A stretch of 64,000 bases of DNA, from the NCBI RefSeq assembly GCF_001989615.1, contig NZ_CP019067.1, positions 310,001 to 374,000 on the forward strand, in the 5' to 3' direction. The notes under the pieces are model-generated. The model did no database searches. It had not been told where the DNA came from and was given only the letters and a program-made list of their open reading frames with translations. Both the position numbers and the translations under genes were made by a program. This stretch comes from Halorientalis sp. IM1011 (GTDB taxonomy: Archaea; Halobacteriota; Halobacteria; Halobacteriales; Haloarculaceae). Below, piece after piece: positions 11,799-12,403 of the stretch (position 1 is its first letter; every line of letters starts with the position of its first letter).

Positions 11799-11950
11799 GT
11801 ATGGCCGTCGTACCCACGTCGACACTCACCACGGATAACTGGCTCCTTTTCGATCAGGTATCGACGACCACCGAAATAGAATTTCGACGGCAGGAGACGC
11901 CTCAGCCGAACTCGATAGCCGTCGCTCACCAGGTAGCTTCGAGAGGAATA

Positions 11951-12058
11951 TGCGTGGATGCAGTCCCAAGGGGAGTGCACCCGCACTCGTTCCGGCGGCA
12001 TCGCCGCCGAAGTTTGCGGGCAGAGCCCGCAGATGAGTGCGTGGGACCGGATTTGAAC
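11951..12058 (+). repeat. 108-bp perfect direct repeat, copy 1
   Basis: Identical base for base to 12232-12339, with an offset of 281 bp. It contains about 87 bp of the 3' flank of tRNA-Leu plus the last 21 bases of the tRNA (including the discriminator). Weaker similarity continues to the left to about 11922. Two perfect hairpins lie inside (GCGGGC-AGA-GCCCGC at 12016-12030, and CGGCGG with CCGCCG at about 11993-12009). Confidence 0.9.
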
Positions 12059-12175
12059 TTCCGTCACGTCGCTTCGCTCGTGACGGCGTTCGCGGTCGAG
12101 GCCTCACTACGTTCGGCTCGCACCGCTCACCGGCGGACCCCTCCGGGACAGCGCCCGCAACGCTGCGCCGTTGGC
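12038..12175 (-). pseudogene. broken tRNA-Leu copy with a 72-bp insertion
   Basis: Minus-strand relic of the tRNA-Leu at 12319-12403. The 3' end (acceptor strand, T loop) is identical to the intact gene. A 72-bp insertion (12059-12130) then interrupts the 5' side of the T stem. After it, 12131-12175 resembles the variable, anticodon and part of the D region with a few changes; the anticodon loop now reads TTGCGGG instead of TTGAGGG. Homology stops at 12175, so the first 19 bases of the tRNA are missing. The insertion holds a hairpin, CCGTCACG at 12061-12068 with CGTGACGG at 12079-12086. It cannot form a functional tRNA. Confidence 0.8.
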
Positions 12176-12231
12176 ATTCTTGACAACAGAGAAACCCAGC
12201 TATCGCTCACCTATTTGCTCCGAAAGGAATT

Positions 12232-12339
12232 TGCGTGGATGCAGTCCCAAGGGGAGTGCACCCGCACTCGTTCCGGCGGCATCGCCGCCGAAGTTTGCGG
12301 GCAGAGCCCGCAGATGAGTGCGTGGGACCGGATTTGAAC
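12232..12339 (+). repeat. 108-bp perfect direct repeat, copy 2 (at the intact tRNA-Leu)
   Basis: Second copy of the repeat at 11951-12058. It overlaps the 3' end of the functional tRNA-Leu and its downstream flank. On the tRNA strand the two hairpins directly follow the tRNA and may serve as its terminator or 3'-processing signal. Confidence 0.9.
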
Positions 12340-12403
12340 CGGCGGACCCCTACGGGACAGCGCCCTCAACGCTGCGCCGTTGGCCTGGCTTGGCTACCCA
12401 CGC
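12319..12403 (-). tRNA. tRNA-Leu (GAG)
   Basis: 85 nt on the minus strand. The acceptor stem GCGTGGG pairs with CCCACGC and the discriminator is A. The anticodon stem-loop is CAGCG-TTGAGGG-CGCTG, giving anticodon GAG. The long variable arm and the T loop TTCAAAT are typical of a class II leucine tRNA. CCA is not encoded. The gene sits between the Mqo-like gene and aMBF1, with a degenerate duplicate downstream. Confidence 0.95.

Follow-up and report, generated by a model that had tools for sequence, protein, structure and literature searches.

Relation to known tRNA-associated elements

Integrative elements of tyrosine recombinases duplicate the 3' end of a tRNA gene, and the T stem-loop is one of the three tRNA regions targeted by integrases (as set out in the available part of PMC8371274). 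Here we describe a tRNA-Leu(GAG) locus of the haloarchaeon Halorientalis sp. IM1011, situated in a window of 64,000 nt (G000:C1:310001-374000, where G000 is the source genome), in which the intact gene is followed by a trailer, a 46-nt element designated DE and a truncated second tRNA copy whose T loop is occupied by a two-hairpin (TH) module. The locus belongs to a class of tRNA 3'-end arrays that extends across the haloarchaea, and about half of the examined tRNAs carry one to four units. As in the elements of tyrosine recombinases, a direct repeat of the tRNA 3' end is present at both ends. The units described here differ in being about 60-300 bp long, often tandem, furnished with conserved hairpins and linked to no integrase. 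The 281-bp period is too short for an integrase within the unit; there was no PF00589 (Phage_integrase) match in the window, and five open reading frames (ORFs) over or beside the repeat unit had no match to any Pfam family.

Partial tRNA remnants beside a full tRNA have been recorded in Haloferax gibbonsii LR2-5 (PMC7921747), and these are probably the same phenomenon, although hairpin modules, arrays, a spread over the class and a mechanism do not figure in the main-text passages. Haloarchaeal partial tRNAs are usually read as prophage remnants. In open-licence papers, with the exception of the supplement of PMC7921747, which holds more on its partial tRNAs and was not covered, no description of such arrays, of the hairpin modules or of DE was found.

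The arrays also bear a likeness to integron cassettes, since tandem units each end in an imperfect inverted repeat with inverse ends (GAAC...GTTC here); they differ in that no gene is recognised, no IntI is known here and the sites are tRNA-specific. The cores of integron attC sites have the consensus RYYYAAC and GTTRRRY. Judged by eye, GAAC...GTTCAAA departs from these cores, as its fourth base is C and not the R of GTTRRRY. Casposons resemble the arrays in that they use tRNA 3' ends as targets and leave a target-site duplication. The units of the arrays are far too short for Cas1 or polymerase genes, and terminal inverted repeats of an element were not seen; the 281-bp period leaves no room for a Cas1-solo gene between such repeats, a Cas1 acting in trans not having been sought. 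The haloarchaeal repeats MITE, PATE and SMR are likewise short and transposase-free, some of them with palindromes (PMC3119063, in part), whereas each array described here repeats the end of its local tRNA. Finally, the 5S rRNA of Halococcus and others contains expansion segments, structured inserts of about 108 nt whose distribution among haloarchaea is patchy (PMC7812874, in part). These inserts lie in a functional 5S gene, while the insert described here lies in a truncated second tRNA copy.

If about half of the tRNA genes carry tandem units of conserved structure in which no gene is recognised, the arrays are either an overlooked class of small elements or an unrecognised feature of tRNA processing. 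They confound the annotation of tRNAs and prophages, and they form a test bed for how tRNA genes become, and survive as, integration hot spots, the hosts including organisms with good genetics (Haloferax).

tRNA 3'-end arrays in haloarchaea

In the source genome 44 of 70 tRNA hits were examined, 24 hits in one cluster and two others being left out. In 23 of these 44 genes the last 16 nt of the tRNA recurred within 800 nt downstream (at most two mismatches), giving 38 copies altogether. The cross-tRNA control returned 6 of 1754 pairs, and the chance expectation calculated by hand is about 0.01 tRNAs. Two identical Lys stretches of 924 bp are included in these figures; counted as one locus they reduce the result to 22 of 43. 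The highest copy numbers were found for Leu(TAA) with four copies and for Glu(CTC), Ser(CGA) and Arg(CCT) with three each. G063, a member of another haloarchaeal family, gave a similar picture: 10 of 20 tRNAs possessed a copy of their own 3' end, against 0 of 342 control pairs. In G505, which belongs to the same phylum and is not a haloarchaeon, partial copies were present at 0 of 20 tRNAs (control 2 of 338), and its two matches were complete second tRNAs. For both genomes the tRNA hits were taken best-scoring first (20 of 44 in G063, 20 of 45 in G505), some hits of G505 being skipped on account of short downstream sequence or a neighbouring tRNA. Within the sample, 3'-end copies are specific to their tRNA and restricted to haloarchaea.

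Among 43 genomes of the same order, 34 had a T-arm foldback pattern, compared with 1 among 203 genomes from elsewhere in the phylum; the reversed-pattern control gave 0 among the matches listed. A hairpin core, M2, was found in 58 of 116 genomes. When 30 of its places were inspected, 23 had a tRNA on the same strand ending 48-227 nt upstream, representing eleven amino-acid types, and at 19 of these 23 the last 16 nt of that very tRNA (at most three mismatches) recurred within 120 nt behind the hairpin. A typical unit consists of a trailer hairpin, an inverted T arm (GGATTTGAAC), the hairpin core and then GTTCAAATCC with the acceptor 3' strand. Units are present or absent between close relatives: in genus g6 a 129-bp unit occupies a site in G108 and G137, where the direct repeat is CCGGTTCGAATCCGGTCCCACGCA, and the site is empty in G012, G078, G082, G107, G125 and G129.

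A repeat of another kind was seen in G063 (C1:278004-278928), where a 75-bp tandem repeat with the acceptor end in each copy lies behind tRNA-Arg. It differs from the hairpin cassettes.

The tRNA-Leu(GAG) locus

ARAGORN recognised a single tRNA in the window, tRNA-Leu(GAG). All parts of the locus lie on the minus strand (Table 1), and in the tRNA sense their order is tRNA, trailer, DE, a 47-nt spacer, tRNA positions 20-66, the insert, tRNA positions 65-86, trailer and DE. The split copy therefore lies downstream of the intact gene. The trailer between tRNA and DE contains two G+C-rich hairpins. It is near certain that this is the architecture of a tRNA-tail array.

A reading of this DNA from its letters only (the sequence-only reading) had reported a perfect repeat of 108 bp with an offset of 281 bp. 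This repeat is real: the longest exact run at that offset is 108 nt (starting at 11951 and 12232) and lies within a pair of 142 nt with 133 identities. A chance origin is excluded. Equally sound was the statement that the downstream copy lacks the tRNA 5' end and has a changed anticodon loop. Positions 1-19 are missing, the remainder is 96% identical over 47 nt to 12338-12384 of the intact gene, and the loop reads TTGCGGG as opposed to TTGAGGG. The description of the insert as a 72-bp sequence with an 8-bp-arm hairpin within the T stem needed correction. Its length is indeed 71-72 nt, the exact edge being ambiguous by one base, but it adjoins the T stem's 5' strand on the loop side (CCGG / insert / TTCAAATCC), which places it in the T loop, and it forms two hairpins (hp1 and hp2) instead of one.

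Table 1. Parts of the tRNA-Leu(GAG) array, numbered from the first nucleotide of the window. Window sequences are members of both the TH and DE models that match them.
Feature	Position	Strand	Evidence
Intact tRNA-Leu(GAG)	12318..12403, reads 12403->12318	-	ARAGORN; Rfam tRNA model, 44 bits at 12319-12403
Repeat copy 1: tRNA 3' end (65-86), trailer, DE	12198..12339	-	repeat search, offset comparison
DE copy 1	12223..12268	-	DE model match G000:C1:322223-322268, E 5.9e-11; pair counts
Truncated tRNA-Leu copy, positions 20-66, anticodon loop TTGCGGG	12129..12175	-	repeat search 96%, BLASTN 95.7%
TH module in T loop, GTGAGC-hp1-GCGAACGCCG-hp2-CGGAA	12059..12130	-	TH model match G000:C1:322059-322130, E 3.4e-10; covariation
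Second tRNA 3' end copy, positions 65-86	12037..12058	-	100% identical, offset 281
Repeat copy 2: tRNA 3' end, trailer, DE	11917..12058	-	repeat search, offset comparison
DE copy 2	11942..11987	-	DE model match G000:C1:321942-321987, E 1.3e-10

The sequence-only reading had proposed a comparison of the locus across related genomes. When 39 genomes were searched at the DNA level, the parts recurred in this order in several genera. A strict pattern, in which the end of the truncated copy is followed by 40-70 nt and then the T loop, was found in 12 of 391 genomes of the class, distributed over 8 of 86 genera; the reversed-pattern control gave 0 among the matches listed. All 12 matches were located at tRNA-Leu(GAG), each with an intact tRNA upstream. 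A near-identical pattern was present in eight stretches of named records, among them Haloferax larsenii, Halovivax asiaticus, Halorarius litoreus, Natronosalvus hydrolyticus and Halorientalis pallida. The idea of a private, one-off scar at this Leu locus has consequently to be given up; the sequence-only reading had set against it a structured element conserved in distant relatives, and this is largely what was found, as shown by the covariation of TH and the occurrence in eight genera. An assembly error, also considered there, cannot explain the arrangement in general, since many genomes show it independently.

Altogether, 157 genomes with a tRNA-Leu(GAG) locus were analysed. At 20 loci DE was present twice and the two copies enclosed a tRNA 3' end, and in 44 genomes the tRNA 3' end recurred at least once within 900 nt; neither count is a prevalence figure, because the set includes loci that were fetched as matches.

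The two-hairpin module

TH has the consensus form GTGAGC-hp1-GCGAACGYCG-hp2-CGGAA and is structurally conserved, with compensatory changes above shuffled and slid controls. In an alignment of 21 sequences, partly chosen by motif, two-sided change was seen in 14 of 18 proposed pairs. This strong covariation amounted to 62 two-sided cells compared with 16.1 +/- 3.4 in shuffles, and to a covariation score of 0.437 compared with 0.145 in the control. Paired cells made up 86.1%, whereas structures slid along the alignment reached 18-45%.

The alignment includes four copies in opposite orientation to their tRNA. Three of them lie within copies of tRNA 3' ends in the source genome, namely those of Ser(gga), Gly(tcc) and Gly(ccc), and the fourth is located at a Gly tRNA of G063. 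A search for copies of the insert elsewhere in the source genome, as once suggested, therefore has two answers: by sequence similarity the insert is single-copy, but by structure reversed relatives exist, among them that at tRNA-Ser(gga). With the TH model, 28 matches were obtained in 14 of 39 genomes, and the four strongest were all at tRNA genes.

Many of the weak matches came from genus g19 and look like a different repeat. The dispersed element concerned, GGTGGCGCG...GTGAGC-hp-GCGAAC...GAGGCTGGGGAGGCG, possesses the first hairpin block of TH.

Origin of the arrays

The explanation that we favour, although only tentatively, is that short cassettes were repeatedly added at tRNA T loops and subsequently homogenised by recombination. 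Units would enter a tRNA gene in its T loop or at its 3' end, and each would bring or duplicate a 3' end. Because the incoming unit would supply this end, the tRNA gene would stay intact. The likeliest agent would be a tyrosine-recombinase-like or Cas1-like enzyme acting on the dyad of the T arm. The resulting direct repeats might afterwards be homogenised or deleted via homologous recombination. In the window, the block of tRNA end, trailer and DE would have been duplicated once along with a truncated tRNA copy, the T loop of which would then have been occupied by TH.

In favour of this explanation are the copies that tRNAs carry of their own 3' ends, the distribution of the T-arm foldback, the recurrence of M2 beside many different tRNAs, the filled and empty sites of genus g6, the covariation and reversed copies of TH, and the targeting of the T stem-loop by integrases. 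Several observations weigh against it. Copies of the 3' end were absent from 21 of the 44 tRNAs of the source genome. Of the M2 places, 4 of the 23 with a tRNA had no 3'-end copy, and at 7 of the 30 no tRNA was found. Just 8 of the 28 TH-model matches lay within 500 nt of a tRNA recognised by ARAGORN (4 of the weaker 24), and the fold energy of the TH region in the window is unremarkable (z -0.89). No recombinase could be linked to the arrays in a PF00589 search of the genome, other enzyme families not having been sought. This search gave seven matches, six of them above the cut-off. Two lay near examined tRNAs (C1:916768, Tyr; C1:1307042, Ala), but these integrases are not favoured as the agent because both tRNAs are without a 3'-end copy. 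We know of no circular or mobile intermediate. The picture is also divided for the continuing gene conversion that the sequence-only reading had offered as one of two possibilities. In a self-match test with the 20 two-copy genomes, the genome's own second copy was unbeaten by the flanks of other genomes in 12 (nine clear cases and three ties), which supports a continuing homogenisation of the two copies; in the other eight the flank of another genome was closer to the first copy. Often in these eight one copy had gained or lost trailer hairpins, so that the copy lengths differ.

The same sequences also fit tandem duplication combined with hairpin insertion, for which no dedicated enzyme is required. 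A purely replicative origin by template switching is a serious rival, even if we consider it somewhat unlikely. The palindrome of the T arm would cause the replication fork to slip, so that a T arm in inverted form would be copied in place, followed by the 3' end, without any mobile unit or special enzyme; recombination between the direct repeats would then homogenise and delete copies. Many units do show an inverted T arm followed by a direct copy, G002 and G097 possess exactly identical tandem units of 99 bp and 125 bp, respectively, the two copies appear homogenised in the 12 genomes mentioned, and repeat-mediated deletions are on record for haloarchaea (PMC3119063, in part). In-place duplication does not readily account for the occurrence of one hairpin core beside different tRNAs in different genera and of TH in both orientations, which make dispersal necessary, nor for the conserved structure of TH.

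The addition of cassettes at T loops could also be phrased more broadly: the units would be undescribed integron-like cassettes without recognised genes that land in the tRNA T loop, each supplying a new 3' end so that arrays can grow behind any tRNA, while the conserved trailer of tRNA-Leu(GAG) would offer a rival acceptor strand. That this combined proposal holds in full is unlikely.

The DE element of the trailer

DE consists of a hairpin (GGTG...CACC), a 5' motif, which is AGTGC in the window, and a 3' strand that copies the acceptor end of the tRNA. This strand is mostly CCCACGCA, the same as tRNA positions 66-73. By pattern ([CT][AG][CT]CCACGCA within 900 nt) DE was found at 130 of the 157 tRNA-Leu(GAG) loci. 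A model search of whole genomes gave 53 matches in 48 of 59 haloarchaeal genomes, and a check by hand against the tRNA coordinates showed that all of them adjoin tRNA-Leu(GAG). An extra search of 12 genomes yielded a single additional DE, which belongs to G116 and is separated from the tRNA by 3 kb. The near-universal DE is a candidate for a new RNA family tied to one tRNA.

DE is conserved in structure. Its helix, in rows pre-selected by the CCACGCA motif, had 95.1% of cells paired and 60 two-sided cells versus 25.8 +/- 3.0. Moreover, the 5' motif varies in step with the tRNA 3' end: in 127 rows (the 130 loci minus three without a recognisable 5' motif) GCATC occurred with GATGC 89 times and GCACT with AGTGC 28 times. 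G108 has a cassette that separates DE from the tRNA (GCATT), and here the DE motif AGTGC matches the nearer copy of the tRNA end, GCACT.

These features raise the hypothesis that DE pairs with the tRNA precursor as a rival acceptor strand. One could go further and suppose that DE, perhaps together with TH and the tRNA-end copies, is a functional RNA acting in the tRNA-Leu(GAG) precursor, its second acceptor strand giving rise to an alternative fold that would control 3' processing or termination. The occurrence of DE at one tRNA and the tracking of the tRNA 3' end speak for such a role. So does folding: in the predicted minimum-energy structure the 5' strand of the tRNA was closed by the DE copy in 120 of 121 precursors (the 130 loci minus nine with a tRNA-end copy ahead of DE), although the tRNA alone gave the normal predicted fold in 121 of 121. 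In the window the precursor stretch is predicted to be more stable than shuffles (z -4.32), and so are trailer and DE alone (z -5.91). However, with randomised trailers that kept the acceptor copy the swapped fold still appeared in 86-89%, so that it mostly reflects the duplicated strand, and it is not accepted as evidence of a tuned conformational switch. In addition, the DE rows had been selected by a pattern requiring CCACGCA, which is missing within 900 nt at 27 of the 157 loci. A functional RNA as the explanation of the locus is in our view quite improbable.

Possible remnants of larger elements and other candidates

The sequence-only reading took the locus for the possible scar of an element that had used this tRNA as its target, and one could regard each copy as an att site left after loss of the element body. 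Part of this stands, as integrases are known to target the T loop and the repeats look att-like, and haloarchaeal integrative elements that duplicate the 3' part of a tRNA are on record (PMC7921747, main text). Two loci point in the same direction. In G013 (C1:1679300-1685800) a 56-nt 3' fragment of tRNA-Leu lies about 5 kb downstream of tRNA-Leu(GAG), and the 1381-aa ORF between them resembles by eye a restriction-modification protein. In G116 (C1:1374268-1377270) the tRNA-Leu end occurs together with DE at two places separated by about 3 kb, and the gene flanked by them looks lipoprotein-like by eye. Against this stand the absence of a PF00589 match from the window and of Pfam domains from the unit ORFs, the lack of any integrase recognised by eye among the listed ORFs of the G116 insert, and the insert itself, a short module of conserved structure that recurs in different families and beside other tRNAs, unlike a random remnant. 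We therefore regard scars of larger elements as the most doubtful of the explanations considered.

Other candidates can be dismissed briefly. An archaeal tRNA intron is rejected, as removal of the insert does not restore a complete tRNA, the split copy being without positions 1-19; a dispersed transposon is rejected in view of the single-copy status of the insert by sequence in the source genome; and a known RNA family is rejected since none of the 4227 Rfam models matched the window at gathering thresholds, and a search of 11700-12600 that admitted E values up to 5 gave no significant match except that to tRNA. G000:C1:287495 had been considered as the end of a large integrated element, but this too was rejected, the site being a tRNA-like fragment of about 50 nt in another context.

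Other features of the source genome

Among the genes neighbouring the array, Pfam matches identified an FAD-dependent oxidoreductase and an HVO_2718-like regulator. The two identical Lys stretches (G000:C1:10857-11780 and 3372587-3373510) are located near the two ends of C1, which suggests that the ends of the circular chromosome overlap by about 20 kb in the assembly. Outside the window, 24 of the 70 tRNA-model hits lie on one strand within 4 kb (G000:C1:2240734-2244715), and this dense cluster may be of viral or plasmid origin.
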